Source: Roseimaritima sediminicola
GTDB taxonomy: Bacteria; Planctomycetota; Planctomycetia; Pirellulales; Pirellulaceae
Reading direction: 5' to 3'
Length of the DNA stretch: 45,273 nucleotides
Assembly (NCBI RefSeq): GCF_009618275.1
Contig: NZ_WIAD01000049.1
Span: 1-45,273, forward strand
Notes under the pieces: generated by a model
The model's input: only the letters and a program-made list of their open reading frames with translations
Databases searched by the model: none
Told to the model about the DNA's origin: nothing
Shown here: piece after piece, positions 2,861 to 37,771 of the stretch
How positions within the stretch are numbered: position 1 is the first letter of the stretch
How the letters are laid out: every line of letters starts with the position of its first letter
Position numbers and translations under genes: made by a program

Positions 2861-2902
2861 GCCGTGGGATAAGCGCTCAGGCGCAGGCGAACGCACCGGA
2901 CG

Positions 2903-2951
2903 GAGATCTGAGATTTGAGATTTGAGATTTGAGATTTGAGATTTGAGATTT
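2903..2951. repeat. 7-bp tandem repeat (GAGATTT)x7
   Basis: Seven head-to-tail units of GAGATTT; the first reads GAGATCT. A shorter and more degenerate version occurs at 23303-23323. In both places the array is followed by the same ~23-bp motif (2953-2975 and 23325-23347, 19 of 23 identical), so the array is part of a larger dispersed element. Confidence 0.95.
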
Positions 2952-2999
2952 GCTGACACCGGCGGATTCTATGTAGGGGAACGAACGGTAGAAGGCAAT

Positions 3000-3242
3000 G
3001 TTTTCTCCCCTCTCCCCCGCTGCGCCGCGAGCGTCAGCGAGTGAAGCAGTGGTGGGAGAGGGGCCGGGGGTGAGGGGGCTCGGGTGCAACGGAATGGCTG
3101 TTTGCGTACGCCTTTCCGATTCCCGCACCGCATCGAAACACGGAAGCGGTGCTGCTCTGCTGGTCCCCCTCACCCCCAACCCCTCTCCCCCGAAGCCTGA
3201 CTCGCTTAGGCTCGCCAGGCTTCGGGGGAGAGGGGAGAAAAC
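3000..3242. mobile_element. Inverted-repeat (MITE-like) element, copy 1
   Basis: A 243-bp element bounded by perfect 19-bp inverted ends (GTTTTCTCCCCTCTCCCCC at 3000-3018 and its complement at 3224-3242). Inside are two hairpins. The right one is a perfect 20-bp stem (3180-3199 with 3216-3235) around a 16-nt loop. The left one pairs the CCCCTCTCCC end with GGGAGAGGGG near 3053-3062. A unique centre of about 85 bp lies between them. Copy 2 is at 23713-23957. No coding capacity is evident. Confidence 0.8.
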
Positions 3243-3284
3243 GATTCTTCTTATACATAAATTCCGCGAGAGTTAGGAACTCCT

Positions 3285-3308
3285 CCAAAGTCTGGCGACT
3301 TCGGCTAC
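3285..3308 (-). repeat. GTAG-hairpin repeat, family H, copy 1
   Basis: Read on the minus strand, GTAG is followed by CCGAAGTC, loop GCCA and GACTTTGG: an 8-bp stem with one G-T wobble. The TAG of the foot is the stop codon of the minus-strand sulfatase. A second copy, with loop ACCA, ends the methyltransferase gene at 31684-31707. Confidence 0.75.
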
Positions 3309-5176
3309 GGGGTTTGGGTTTCGGGCTGGGGCGTGAGCAACATCAGACGCAAGTCCATCACTTGCGATCCGGGGATCTCGAGGGCTTTTAATTGCAACCG
3401 GCCCGGGCCGGCGGCAAGCTCGATCTCGCCCAGCCGCATCCGTCCCCAATCCTTCGTGTACGATTCCATCCGCTCGACACGATCGTGTTCCCGGCCTACG
3501 AGCGGCGACTCGTGCGGCTCGCTGACCCGCCCCACCGTCCGAGAATTTCCAAAGCTCAGCTCGACCGTCGCGCCCACGTCCTCGGGCGGGCAGGTGTACA
3601 GCAGCTCCACCTGGTAGCGACCGGCCCGGTCGACCACGCAGTCCCAGGTGATGGCATCTTCGGTGCTGGTCCAACCCGAGAAGAACGAATCATTGGGAAA
3701 TCGATTGGAGCGTACGATTCCGCCATGAGCCTCCGCGTCCCGAGCCGGCAACTGCGTCAGCGGCGCGTCGGGGTGACCGACGACGAACGGCCGAAGATCG
3801 AACTCCGCGCCATGCCGGGCGAGCATCGTCTGGCGAAACCGATCGGCCTCCTGCTGGAGGGCTGCCAACGTCTCGGGCTGGTCGTCGATGGCGTGTTGTT
3901 GGCCGGGATCGGCGTCGATATCGTACAGGCGTCCTTGGTGGTCCAGGCGGTAGCGGTCGCTGCGCACCGAGACGCGGCCCCGCCAGGTGTGCACCAGCGT
4001 TCGCGGCGGCCAGTCCTTGGCGGAGCCAGCGTCGCCAGAGCCACGCAGCAGCGGCACCAGACTTCGCCCGTCCAGCTCATTCGCCCCCGCGATCGGCACA
4101 TCGGCCAATTCGCACAGCGTCGGCAAGAGGTCCATCGCCGAACTGATTGCTTCGATGTGCGTACCGGCGGGAATCTTTTCGGGCCAGCGAATGAACAGGG
4201 GCGAGCGAACGCCGCCTTCGTCGGTTGATCCTTTGCGACCGCGCAGGCCGCCGTTGTACCGCGAACCATTGGGACCGTTGTCGCAGAAGAAGACCACGAT
4301 CGTATCTTCGGCCAGTTGCAACTGGTCCAGCCGCTCGAGCAACCTTCCTACGTTCCAGTCGATATTCTCACACATCGCCAAGGCGGCCCGCGCGTGGTTG
4401 ATTTGTTTTTCGTTCAGTCCCTCGGGCAATTGCTCCAGCGGGTTGTCCTTGAACTTGTTCCACCAGCGATCCGGAACCTGCATGGGTGAATGCGGCGTGT
4501 TCAGCGGCAGGTACACAAAGAAGTTCTCGGCCCGATGCTCGTCGATGAACTCCATCGCTTGATTGGTCAGGTCGTCGACCAGAAAGCCCTCGCCGGTGGT
4601 CAGGTGCCCGTCACGCTCAAGCATTGGGCTGAAATAATTTCCCCAGTGCCCCGAGCAAAATCCGTAGAAGTGGTCAAAGCCGCGGGCCAGCGGATGGTAG
4701 GGAAACTGCATCCCGCTGTGCCACTTGCCGAAACCGGCGGTCCGGTAGCCGCTGCGCTGAAACAGTTCGCTGATCAGCGTCTCATCCAGATCGATGCGTT
4801 CGCCACCGGCGGAGGTGTGGTAGACGCCCGAACGGACGTGATGGCGTCCGGTCAACAGCTCCGCCCGGGTGGGCGAACAAACCGGGCTGACATAGAAGTG
4901 CTGGAAGCGAGCCCCGGCGGCGGCCAGAGCATCCAGGTGCGGCGTTTCGATCTCCAGATTACCGTGCAGGCGCAAGTCGCCCCAGCCCTGATCATCGGTC
5001 AGGACCACAATGACGTTGGGCCGAGTGGTCGACTGAGCCGTAGCGGCGGAACACGCCAACGTCTGCGCCAGCAGCGCCGCGACGACCAGCGCGGCGGGAG
5101 CGGCAATCCTGAGCAACACGGACCTCCGGAGGTCAGAACGACGAGCGGTAGGCGTGGAGTCAAAGAGGTGATTCAT
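3305..5176 (-). CDS. Secreted sulfatase with extra C-terminal domain
   Basis: A 623-residue sulfatase, longer than the usual 450-520. ATG 5176 is chosen because it gives a signal peptide (hydrophobic AAPAALVVAALLAQTLACSAATAQ) right before the sulfatase core; upstream in-frame codons run into the kinase gene. Core motifs are LTDDQGWGD, formylglycine site C100-S-P-T-R, GKWHSG, TPHSPM and CDNGPNGSRYNGG with RKGSTDEGG. From about residue 460 there is an additional region of about 160 residues (SGWTSTEDAITWDC...GRYQVELLYTCPPED...) that looks like a beta-sandwich, possibly carbohydrate-binding; this part is inference. It lies 20 nt downstream of the hybrid kinase, so the two are probably co-transcribed. 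Its stop codon lies within the H repeat. Confidence 0.92.
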   Translation of the reverse strand: MNHLFDSTPTARRSDLRRSVLLRIAAPAALVVAALLAQTLACSAATAQSTTRPNVIVVLTDDQGWGDLRLHGNLEIETPHLDALAAAGARFQHFYVSPVCSPTRAELLTGRHHVRSGVYHTSAGGERIDLDETLISELFQRSGYRTAGFGKWHSGMQFPYHPLARGFDHFYGFCSGHWGNYFSPMLERDGHLTTGEGFLVDDLTNQAMEFIDEHRAENFFVYLPLNTPHSPMQVPDRWWNKFKDNPLEQLPEGLNEKQINHARAALAMCENIDWNVGRLLERLDQLQLAEDTIVVFFCDNGPNGSRYNGGLRGRKGSTDEGGVRSPLFIRWPEKIPAGTHIEAISSAMDLLPTLCELADVPIAGANELDGRSLVPLLRGSGDAGSAKDWPPRTLVHTWRGRVSVRSDRYRLDHQGRLYDIDADPGQQHAIDDQPETLAALQQEADRFRQTMLARHGAEFDLRPFVVGHPDAPLTQLPARDAEAHGGIVRSNRFPNDSFFSGWTSTEDAITWDCVVDRAGRYQVELLYTCPPEDVGATVELSFGNSRTVGRVSEPHESPLVGREHDRVERMESYTKDWGRMRLGEIELAAGPGRLQLKALEIPGSQVMDLRLMLLTPQPETQTP

Positions 5177-12344: not shown

Positions 12345-12608
12345 AGCAGTGGCATAGGCTTCTAGCCTGTGAAAAAAAACCGCGGGCTAGCGCCCTGCGG
12401 CTGATAAGTGAGCAGTGGCATAGGCTTCTAGCCTGTGAAAAAAAAACCGCGGGCTAGCGCCCTACGGCTGATAAGTGAGCAGTGGCATAGGCTTCTAGCC
12501 TGTGAAAAAAACCGCGGGCTAGCGCCCTGCGGCTGATAAGTGAGCAGTGGCATAGGCTTCTAGCCTGTGAAAAAAAACCGCGGGCTAGTGCCCTGCGGCT
12601 GATAAGTG
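12345..12608. repeat. Tandem array of four ~66-bp units (hairpins A+B)
   Basis: Four head-to-tail units at 12345-12410, 12411-12477, 12478-12542 and 12543-12608 (66, 67, 65 and 66 bp). Each contains hairpin A (GTGG, then CATAGGCT, loop TCT, AGCCTGTG), a poly-A run of 8, 9, 7 and 8 bases, and hairpin B (CCGC, GGGC, TAGC, GCCC, bulged T, GCGG). Almost all the length variation is in the A run. The array starts at the ZIP start codon. Hairpin A recurs at 16996-17065 (inverted) and 45229-45273; hairpin B recurs inverted at 13715-13917. Confidence 0.95.
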
Positions 12609-12850
12609 AACAGTACAGCCCGTGAATAGTAGCAAGCCGTATACCAGTAATCGGCGGGCAGCGTGCGGCAGGTCCCGCCGAGCGGCCACTTCGAGCGACC
12701 GCCCACCCCCTCCGCAGACACCATCAATTCCCCTTTCCGAGCCCCATGGGGAAACCGTACCGTATCGGAAACGCTCGGGATTCGGTGGCACTTCGCCGCC
12801 GCCGCCGCGGAGCGAACTTCCATCGAGAACGGGGCAACCGGGAAAGCACG
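12609..12850. other. Intergenic stretch without recognised gene
   Basis: Together with the repeat array this makes a gap of about 500 bp before the deacetylase. Frames that cross it on the minus strand overlap the deacetylase and have no recognisable protein features. No RNA gene, terminator or convincing promoter was seen. Confidence 0.5.
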
Positions 12851-13700: not shown

Positions 13701-13714
13701 GCCCACGATTTCAC

Positions 13715-13917
13715 CAGCCGCAGGGCGCTAGCCCACGGTTCCGTCACGCGGCGTCCCACGGTGAACCGGCACGGTACGAACCGTACGCTAGCGCGTTTCG
13801 GCTGCTGGGCCCACGGCCGCCCCATCATCAGCCGCAGGGCGCTAGCCCACGGTTCCGTCAGCCGCGGGGCGCTAGAGCCCACGGTTCATCAGCCGCGGGG
13901 GCGCTAGCCCACGGTTG
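13715..13917. repeat. Cluster of hairpin-B repeats
   Basis: Four copies in one direction of GCCGCAGGGCGCTAGCCC-type sequence, beginning near 13715, 13829, 13859 and 13891. They are inverted relative to the B hairpins at 12345-12608, so the deacetylase gene sits between opposed copies. They begin 15 nt after its stop codon. Together with 13918-14073, in which nothing else was recognised, this fills the 373-bp gap before the next gene. Confidence 0.85.
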
Positions 13918-14073
13918 GCTCACACCTTCCCGAAACGGGGGTAGCGTCCTCAACCGCTCAGGCGCGGCATACGCTTTGCAGCATTCTGCCCTCGCGATCA
14001 GCCAACTCCCGGCGGCCGCACTCCCAGTTTCGCAAAGCTAACCCGCCCCACCCACCGACTGGAGAACCTCCCC

Positions 14074-16970: not shown

Positions 16971-16995
16971 GGGTTTGGGTGTTGGTGGGGGGGTT

Positions 16996-17065
16996 CACAG
17001 GCTGGAAGCCTATGCCACTGCTCACAGGCTGGAAGCCTATGCCACTGATGCCTATGCCACTACTG
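16996..17065 (-). repeat. Hairpin-A repeats between two minus-strand genes
   Basis: Two full copies (16996-17020 and 17023-17047) and a partial third (17048-17065), inverted relative to the 12345 array. On the minus strand each is GTGG, CATAGGCT, loop TCC, AGCCTGTG; the stem contains one T-G wobble on this strand, which becomes an A-C mismatch on the other. The stop codon of the DUF3293 gene (17060-17062) lies inside the partial copy. Confidence 0.85.
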
Positions 17066-23162: not shown

Positions 23163-23378
23163 CGGTCGCCGGCGCCGTGGTCGGCCCAAGATCCCGAAGC
23201 CGCGAAGCAAAAAACGCGGCAAGCCCAACACCGCGTCGAGCAGCGACAGCAGGCGTCGATGCAGGTGGTGGGAAGGGGGAAGAGGGAAGGGATTTTAGAT
23301 TTGAGATTTGAGATTTCAGATTTCCTGACTCTACCGGATTCTATGTACACAAATTTTTCCTTCGTGGCTCGTGTTTTA

Positions 23379-23712: not shown

Positions 23713-23957
23713 GTTTTCTCCCCTCTCCCCCGCGGCGCCGCGAGCGTCAGCGAGTGAAGCCGTGGTGGGAGAGGGGCCGGGGGTGAGGGGGCTCGGGTGC
23801 AAATGGCTGACTCTCTGCATCGGATTTTCCTGCCGCGTATCGCATCAAGACGCGGCACTGACGAAACCACGCTGCAATTCCCCCTCACCCCCGACCCCTC
23901 TCCCCCAAATCCTGGCTCGCTTAGGCTCGCCAGGATTTGGGGGAGAGGGGAGAAAAC
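23713..23957. mobile_element. Inverted-repeat (MITE-like) element, copy 2
   Basis: 245 bp with the same perfect 19-bp inverted ends as copy 1 (23713-23731 and 23939-23957). The right inner hairpin is a perfect 21-bp stem (23895-23915 with 23930-23950); its loop (CTCGCTTAGGCTCG) is shared with copy 1 but its arms differ at covarying positions. The central ~85 bp is alignable with copy 1 but diverged. Confidence 0.8.
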
Positions 23958-31561: not shown

Positions 31562-31629
31562 TCCCGCAGGGACGACAGCTCATACCATGGGCTGACGCCC
31601 ATGGCTACATCCTGTCGCCACTACGTGGC
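31559..31629. repeat. Family-D repeat, copy 2
   Basis: TAG-TCCC-GCA-GGGA (31559-31572), then CCATGGGCTGACGCCCATGG (31585-31604) with GTAG on the minus strand (31605-31608), then GCCAC-TAC-GTGGC (31617-31629). It directly supplies the stop codon of the isomerase gene. An inverted motif E follows at 31655-31677. Confidence 0.8.
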
Positions 31630-31683
31630 TGCTATGCCCGAATGTCGCAAAGCATACAGAGCTACCGTTAGAGTCAGTGTTTC

Positions 31684-36207: not shown

Positions 36208-36326
36208 CACGGCTCTCCGAGCCGTGACCGTTTCTGCTTCTCGGCTGGGACTGCCGAGCTACTATTTGCTTCTCGGCTGGGACAGCCGAGCTACTATCTG
36301 CTTCTCGGCTGGGACAGCCGAGCTAC
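36208..36326 (-). repeat. Family-F GTAG hairpins, three 32-bp tandem copies, plus related hairpin
   Basis: On the minus strand GTAG followed by CTCGGCTGTCCCAGCCGAG (8-bp stem, 3-nt loop TCC) at 36323-36304 and 36294-36272; the third copy (36262-36240) has one A for T that opens two pairs. The period is 32 bp. A separate hairpin with the same geometry (CACGGCTC, TCC, GAGCCGTG) is at 36208-36226. The last GTAG runs into the stop codon of the DUF1501 gene. Confidence 0.85.
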
Positions 36327-37771
36327 TATCCGGTGAACAGCGGATGGATCACCTTGCCGGCGGTGATCGGGCGCGGCCGCCCTTCGCGGTCGGGCAGGTA
36401 GGTTTCGGGATCCATCCCCAAAGCGTGCACGATGGTGGTGCCGAAATCGTAGGGGCTGACCGGATCGCGGATCGGATGTGCGGCCAGTTTATCGCTGGCC
36501 CCATACACCGTTCCGCCGCGGATTCCGCCGCCGGCCATCAGCCCGCTGTAACAGAACGGCCAGTGCTCGCGGCCGGCGTTGGCGGGATTGATCTGTGGTT
36601 TCCGGCCGAACTCGCCGACCCACACGACCAACGTTTCGTCCAGCATGCCGCGCTGCTCGAGATCCTCCAGCAGCGCCGACAGGGCCCTGTCCGAAGGCGG
36701 GATCAGGTCGTCCTTCAAACGATTGAAGTTGTTGACATGGGTGTCCCAGAAGTTGCGTCCGTCGTTGTGCCAGTTCACGCTGACCAGCGGCACGCCGTGT
36801 TCGACCAAGCGGCGGGCCATCAACACGCTCTGGCCGTGGATGTTGCGTCCGTATCGCTGCCGCACTTTTTCCGGTTCGGCCGCCAGATCGAAGGCCTTGC
36901 GGACGTGCGGTGAAGCCAACAGCCGGTGGGCTCGCTGTTGATGTTGGCGGAGCGTCGCGGTGGGATCGTCGGTGCCGCGTCCGAGCAACGGAGCGTCGCT
37001 TTCCATCTGCCGGCGCTGGGCGTCCAATTGTTTCAGCAGCGTGACCCGGCTCTCCAAACGTGCCAGTGACATGTCCGCCGGCAGGGCCAGCGAGCTGGGC
37101 TTCCAGTCCGCCGCGTTGGGGTCGCCGGTCAGCAAAAGTCCGTCGTGTGCCGGCCCCAACCAACCGCCGTGTTGTCCGGGCGCCTCGCCTCCCGGAGCCG
37201 CCGGATGCAAAGCCTTCCAGGGCAGGGTCACAAAGGATGGCACCCCCTGCTCGCTCGGCCGCAGCTTCGATACCAACGATCCCAGGTGCGGTGAATCGTT
37301 GTTGCTGGGCGGTGTGGCATCGCTCTTGACAACCGGAGCCGGTTGGCCGGTGACGGCGGCGTGTCCGCTGGAGAGGTGGGCCGGATCGTCGTGAGACAGC
37401 GACCGCACGATCGCCAACTTGTCGGTCATCTGCGCGAGGTGCGTGAAGTGCTCGCAGATGGGCATCCCGGCAACGCGAGTCGACACGGGGTTGAAACTGC
37501 CCCGCACCTCCGCCGGCGCATCGGGTTTCATGTCGAACGTTTCCAGCTGGCTGGGCCCACCCCACATGAACAGGAAAATACAGGCTTTGGCCGGTTTGGC
37601 GACCGTCGCAGAGGCCCGGACGTCGGTGGCCGCAAACCAATCCGCCAACCCCATCCCCAAGCCGCTCAGCATGCCGGCCTGCAGCAGGTGACGTCGAGAA
37701 CGCAAGCTGCGACGAAAATCAGAACAACCTTCGCTGGCAGCGGAACGGCCAGGGTGTCGAGAATGCGGCAT
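36326..37771 (-). CDS. DUF1501 protein, Tat-exported
   Basis: 481 residues. N-terminal twin-arginine signal SRRHLLQAGMLSGLGMGLADWFA. DUF1501 hallmarks follow: KACIFLFMWGGPSQLETFDMKPDAP, VRSLSHDDPAHLSSGHAAVTG, GVPLVSVNWHNDGRNFWDTH, LDETLVVWVGEFGRKPQINPANAGREHWPFCYSGLMAGGGIRGG, and HALGMDPETYLPDREGRPRPI. The fold is alkaline-phosphatase/sulfatase-like, but there is no C-x-P-x-R site. In planctomycetes it usually pairs with a DUF1549/DUF1553 cytochrome protein; no such gene is adjacent here. The stop codon lies at the foot of the F repeat. Confidence 0.92.
   Translation of the reverse strand: MPHSRHPGRSAASEGCSDFRRSLRSRRHLLQAGMLSGLGMGLADWFAATDVRASATVAKPAKACIFLFMWGGPSQLETFDMKPDAPAEVRGSFNPVSTRVAGMPICEHFTHLAQMTDKLAIVRSLSHDDPAHLSSGHAAVTGQPAPVVKSDATPPSNNDSPHLGSLVSKLRPSEQGVPSFVTLPWKALHPAAPGGEAPGQHGGWLGPAHDGLLLTGDPNAADWKPSSLALPADMSLARLESRVTLLKQLDAQRRQMESDAPLLGRGTDDPTATLRQHQQRAHRLLASPHVRKAFDLAAEPEKVRQRYGRNIHGQSVLMARRLVEHGVPLVSVNWHNDGRNFWDTHVNNFNRLKDDLIPPSDRALSALLEDLEQRGMLDETLVVWVGEFGRKPQINPANAGREHWPFCYSGLMAGGGIRGGTVYGASDKLAAHPIRDPVSPYDFGTTIVHALGMDPETYLPDREGRPRPITAGKVIHPLFTG

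Follow-up and report, generated by a model that had tools for sequence, protein, structure and literature searches.

Introduction

REPINs and BIMEs, which are doublets of REP sequences that accompany a RAYT gene, consist of two inverted palindromic units present in high copy number, and compensatory changes in the arms of REPIN hairpins are described as common (PMC3116915). MITEs, in turn, are short dispersed elements with inverted ends and no transposase gene inside. A third comparison is with a mutation process and not a family: template switching at quasipalindromes homogenises hairpin arms and inverts the spacer between them (PMC8604942, PMC8794818), and compensatory changes with loop inversion were very rare in the latter. 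Lastly, G-rich heptamer repeats of Xanthomonas and Nostoc (PMC4692102) are bacterial intergenic repeats that combine heptamer periodicity with G-quadruplex potential.

Here we describe a dispersed repeat of the planctomycete Roseimaritima sediminicola. Like REPINs and BIMEs, it holds two inverted palindromic units and is numerous, but it is longer and has additional inverted ends around it, and in the loci examined its units do not flank a Y1 gene. Like MITEs, it is short and non-coding within inverted ends, but no autonomous parent was found among the outer-end pairs and loci read, it is flanked by repeats with a 7-bp period and not by a clean target duplication, and different interiors share its ends. 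Its heptamers are A/T-rich flanks and its G-runs lie inside the element, unlike the repeats of Xanthomonas and Nostoc. Arm homogenisation and loop inversion are common to this repeat and to template-switch mutation, here across copies of a dispersed repeat in one genome. We consider it probable that the repeat is a non-autonomous family of mobile DNA, of about 150 inner modules, that is spread by a transposase in trans and whose hairpin arms are kept alike at least partly by template switching.

Results

The window, by which we mean the whole stretch of 45,273 nucleotides that was analysed, is one whole contig of a draft genome (6.25 Mb, 185 contigs) whose gene content, together with the relatives of one protein, marks it as planctomycete-like. 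A preliminary description had reported a MITE-like element at 3000-3242 with a second copy about 20 kb away. Both copies lie where they were placed, with perfect 19-bp inner inverted ends and the same nested plan; the loop core CTCGCTTAGGCTCG is identical in the two, and the arm differences quoted for them are present. Each copy contains two inverted hairpin units, each beside a C-run or G-run frame (Table 1). The boundaries had to be moved, as aligned flanks of the copies revealed outer inverted ends, CTGACTCCGGCGGAATCTATGTA and TACATAGATTCCGCCGGAGTCAG, and homology reaches 2953 and 3276. Thus, the true element is 324 bp long, with outer ends of the form CTGACTC.../...GAGTCAG beside 7-bp repeats, and its terminal inverted repeats comprise the inner ends of 18-19 bp plus the outer arms. 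In 74 pairs, the 22-bp outer arms differ at a mean of 3.57 positions within a copy, compared with 4.15 after shuffling (0/2000 shuffles as low). Folded as DNA, the 324-nt element is far more stable than its shuffles (z -9.4, 0/100).

Table 1. Features of the element and of related sequences in the window.
Feature	Position	Strand	Remarks
(GAGATTT)n heptamer array	2903..2952	+	abuts left outer end; TRF, 7.1 copies
Left outer inverted end	2953..2975	+	CTGACACCGGCGGATTCTATGTA
Left inner inverted end	3000..3018	+	GTTTTCTCCCCTCTCCCCC; the end named in the preliminary description
Left hairpin	3008..3063	+	unit type U2
G-run frame	3054..3078	+	GGGAGAGGGGCCGGGGGTGAGGGGG; four G-runs, fits G-quadruplex motif
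C-run frame	3165..3189	-	CCCCCTCACCCCCAACCCCTCTCCC; mirror frame of right unit
Right hairpin	3180..3235	+	unit type U1; arms 3190-3199 / 3216-3225, loop 3200-3215
Right inner inverted end	3224..3242	+	
Right outer inverted end	3254..3276	+	diverged
Second copy of inner module	23713..23957	+	other subfamily (AAAT/ATTT arms)
Different-cargo element heading towards second copy	23291..23347	+	heptamer array 23291-23323, left outer end 23325-23347
Acido-Lenti-1 motif and degraded right outer end	31585..31677	+	motif 31585-31630, end 31655-31677

Each frame has a set of four G-runs on one of the two strands and might fold into a G-quadruplex. Across 65 copies, G-run positions changed less often than other positions of the frames (0.0024 vs 0.0179 and 0.0105 vs 0.126 substitutions per site), a comparison in which two variable positions dominate one side. 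The window also holds tandem or inverted palindromic repeats of different families at 12345-12614, 13711-13923, 16995-17047 and 36233-36330.

The notion of a two-copy element did not survive a genome-wide search, in which the 18-bp inner end gave 310 matches (158+152) at up to 3 mismatches, whereas a control gave 2. Provided that most copies have two ends, this corresponds to about 150 copies. Collecting copies by end patterns and similarity, we extracted 93 inner end pairs (90 non-overlapping and 3 overlapping; 75 of 225-270 bp) and 181 hairpin units, namely 95 U1, 74 U2 and 12 U3, with one of the U1 units resembling U3 by its letters; these entries and units, like the 74 outer pairs, are samples among the matches listed. 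The U1 unit has the usual orientation in 93 of 95 cases and is inverted in 1, with 1 undetermined. Eight of the 93 entries are solo-hairpin forms of 70-71 bp, which would fit deletions between the repeated frames. A literature search with the repeat letters CCCCTCTCCC and CCCTCACCCC returned nothing on this repeat among the matches listed.

Only partial matches were seen in relatives, in 10 of 39 other genomes, and those listed span 24-73 nt (at most about 19 candidates scored per genome); the exact frame is present in 10 of 293 other genomes of the phylum. In other genomes, wherever a related hairpin can be read, it keeps the C-run frame and differs in stem and loop: some have loops of 67-68 nt on stems such as CCCCCAGGCAAGC, CCCCCGAAACAAGC and CCCCCAATAAAGCCG, and others are short forms with loops of 1-5 nt. 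A scan of genome contigs with the flanking sulfatase returned 48 homologues of 38-63% identity.

The outer ends enclose more than one kind of interior. The 74 outer-end pairs comprise 51 of 311-347 bp, 12 of 282-289 bp, 9 of 126-205 bp and 2 of 387-388 bp, and those of 282-289 bp that were read have a different interior within the same outer ends. Among three such other-cargo elements that were scanned, two (L148 and L150) each hold two inverted Acido-Lenti-1 motifs and the third (L159) holds none. A search of the genome for an uninterrupted 'empty' outer palindrome, allowing gaps of 0-30 nt, gave no exact match; one locus (L068) has a loosely similar outer palindrome with a 37-nt gap. We noticed no autonomous parent among the 74 pairs, which span 126-388 bp (pairing below 420 bp, draft genome), or near the ends at 20 further outer-end loci.

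Heptamer arrays, often (GAGATTT)n, adjoin the outer ends. In the window and 27 loci of the same genome, 20 of them picked for holding outer ends, a two-heptamer motif has 13 matches in 2,663 bp beside outer ends and 1 in 131,718 bp elsewhere, overlapping matches included. The two flanks of a copy match each other directly better than flanks of different copies do (12.6 vs 9.5, 0/5000 permutations, 74 copies), and this holds for the 52 copies that have no neighbouring element (12.7 vs 9.5, 0/5000). Direct repeats are in excess at 8, 15, 22 and 29 bp, with the top z at 15 (8.8; 8.6 on recount). At least 13 of 15 flank bases match in 20 of 74 copies, where 6.4 are expected, and in 12 of the 52 copies without neighbours, where 2.8 are expected. 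Tandem neighbours are mostly spaced by 15 bp, and some by 16, 22, 29 or 36 bp. Because the flanks are heptamer-periodic, no single target-duplication length can be read from them. Inverted extension of the ends into the flanks was also considered and set aside, as inverted matches within a copy are overall no better than those across copies (11.1 vs 11.6, 3799/5000 permutations as high; 11.8 vs 11.6 and 1892/5000 in the 52 copies). Single cases do exist at two loci (L118 and L159); at L118, the element at 624-949 has 30 bp on each side that are exact inverted copies of one another, whereas many other copies have direct repeats there.

These flanks and interiors allow a broader model, which strikes us as improbable, in which the family is a modular transposition platform: outer ends and 7-bp-phased flanking direct repeats, strongest at 15 bp, would carry quite different pairs of hairpins, among them palindromes of the type that flanks Y1-transposase genes. 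The heptamer arrays might then be a product of the element, made by duplicating the target again and again, and not targets that existed beforehand, given that the examined sequence is nearly devoid of the two-heptamer motif outside the ends of elements.

The description as MITE-like is borne out by dispersal, inverted ends and non-coding content. In keeping with the earlier claim that the window lacks a transposase, none was found by Pfam among 37 window ORFs, a subset that includes some overlapping alternative frames. Three minus-strand ORFs of at least 100 aa, which lie outside that scanned set, reach into 2953-3276 (2507-2959; 2877-3179, 100 aa; 3273-3674); they are too short or mostly outside the element, as the claim of no coding capacity would have it.

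If the inverted hairpin doublet were itself the unit, it could be REPIN-like, with a hairpin-reading Y1 transposase (HUH, TnpA-REP/RAYT) moving it in the form of single-stranded DNA. The inverted doublet of palindromic units is present, as are the solo derivatives; the genome has seven Y1 transposase matches; two of the three other-cargo elements carry Acido-Lenti-1 pairs, and three of the seven Y1 genes have the same motif on either side. Compensatory arm changes, too, are familiar from REPIN hairpins. However, U-type units are absent from all seven Y1 loci of this genome, within about 1.5 kb on each side and at up to 4 mismatches in end, frame or loop motifs, where weak single matches are loop fragments; thus, the RAYT gene flanked by REPs of its own type that a REPIN should have was not seen there. 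Nor did we find a Y1 transposase flanked by U-type units when 28 loci of relatives were added, one per genome and only part of the many more Y1 matches in relatives, and isolated frame-like strings occur in only 2 of these 35 loci. In addition, the finding of different cargo within the same outer ends argues for recognition of the ends instead of reading of hairpins by a Y1 enzyme. We therefore regard a REPIN-like origin as conceivable but doubtful.

Acido-Lenti-1 (RF01687), an 'sRNA' in Rfam, has at least 103 matches over the cut-off among 112 listed (best 150 of 1679 candidates scored). At the three Y1 genes that it surrounds, the hits number 2 (L138) and 3 (L139), in one orientation, and 13 (L140), in both. 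Acido-Lenti-1 looks like the REP palindrome of a TnpA-REP system more than an sRNA, and it resembles class 3 of PMC6006769; the literature matches listed contained no link between Acido-Lenti-1 and a REP palindrome.

The preliminary description had also proposed that both hairpins covary, from which it derived either selection on the folded form or a process in which one arm is copied repeatedly from the other. We counted arm states in 90 of the 95 U1 units (36 nt) and 69 of the 74 U2 units (37 nt), dropping other lengths. For the left hairpin, the covariation seen in TGC/GCA and GGC/GCC does not hold up across copies: the named pair is T-A in 30 units, G-C in 4, G.A in 30 and G.G in 5, so that 34 of 69 are paired and 35 mispaired (of the five dropped units, 4 are paired and 1 mispaired).

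The right hairpin gives a mixed answer. Pair 3 is G-C in 76 of 90 units, A-T in 13 and A.C in 1, and pair 6 is G-C in 53, T-A in 22, T.C in 13 and otherwise in 2, with the opposite mismatch, G.A, in none of the 90. A real pairing signal stands, as 64 of 90 units have perfect arms where 2000 shuffles give a mean of 36 and a maximum of 47; counted over distinct arm pairs, perfect pairing shows a weak excess (5 of 21; mean 2.0, maximum 7). Among the 37 distinct 36-nt sequences (five units of other lengths left out), three measures lie above all 500 shuffles, all of a kind prone to inflation by related rows: the share of paired cells is 95.4% (shuffles 89.3%), two-sided changes affect 25 cells (shuffles 10.1) and the covariation score is 0.176 (shuffles 0.079). 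Two other measures, on which relatedness has the least influence, stay within the shuffles: 3 pairs are changed on both sides (shuffles 2.2; 120/500 as high), and there are 6 further pair types (shuffles 6.1; 479/500 as high). One-sided arms, which the preliminary description expected to speak against it if found in many copies, do occur in part: 13 of 90 units carry the one-sided T.C mismatch at pair 6, with GAAT/CTTC in 10 units, AAAT/CTTT in 2 and AAAT/CCTT in 1. Given the failure of the left hairpin and these one-sided intermediates in the right, the data do not establish selection on the folded form.

The other proposal, copying of one arm from the other, fares better. At one locus (L026), 7 substitutions outside the loop separate two tandem copies, and in the second the 16-nt loop is exactly reverse-complemented between unchanged arms, while in the first it is uninverted; such an inversion is seen in only 1 of 95 U1 units. 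There are also private two-sided arm changes, GCAG/CTGC and ACAG/CTGT, and a further one, GACAG/CTGTC, in a unit with another stem mismatch. In a tree of 65 copies built with the hairpins excluded (two others skipped), paired and mispaired states mix side by side; because copies recombine, the tree cannot prove that double changes arose in single events. Together, the loop inversion, the private changes and the mixed states are consistent with arm copying, and template switching accounts for the state of the arms no less well than selection on the fold.

If the fold itself were functional, the repeat might be a structured RNA or an RNA-level terminator under selection between converging genes. 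Gene settings per locus are convergent in 29, tandem in 15, divergent in 4 and undetermined in 2 (29/48 convergent), and per copy 31, 17, 4 and 4 (56 entries), with genes called by a small codon model for which 6 genes of the window served as training set; entries below 190 bp or with less than 600 bp of flank were left out, and the recount per locus allows for copies that share a gap. By comparison, window gaps above 100 bp are convergent in 6 cases, tandem in 9 and divergent in 6, and two of the convergent gaps hold the element itself. This excess, the strong folding and the raised fraction of paired cells in the right hairpin would all suit such an RNA, but the convergent bias fits promoter avoidance as well as a terminator role. 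In addition, covariation fails in the left stem, which is mispaired in 35 of 69 units, and is mixed in the right, which gives no excess of two-sided pairs or pair types; the commonest right-hairpin intermediate, T.C, is no wobble pair on either strand; and a single Rfam family, Acido-Lenti-1, passes the threshold in the window, at a place outside the element. Thus, we think it quite unlikely that the pairing reflects an RNA function.

Discussion

We observe directly the dispersal of the repeat, its ends, its modularity, the alternative cargo within the same outer ends and the bias towards convergent gaps. Our best reading of the repeat is a MITE/REPIN-like non-autonomous element with arms partly homogenised by template switching. 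In this model, a full copy of about 324 bp would consist of outer inverted ends of about 23 bp around two inverted hairpin units, each with its G-run frame. A putative transposase, acting in trans on the ends, would spread the copies; template switching between the arms during replication would keep them alike, at least in part, and the same process may have inverted the one loop. Weak selection on the fold, as a DNA hairpin or a transcript, may contribute, but the data do not require it.

Changes on both sides of a hairpin are usually taken as proof of a functional fold. Here, the family of about 150 copies in one genome includes an inverted loop and intermediates with mispaired arms, which is what copying between arms should give. 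Families of this kind supply many near-identical replicates, which lets template switching and selection be separated. The modular cargo, in turn, suggests that a single set of mobile ends can serve palindromes unrelated to each other.
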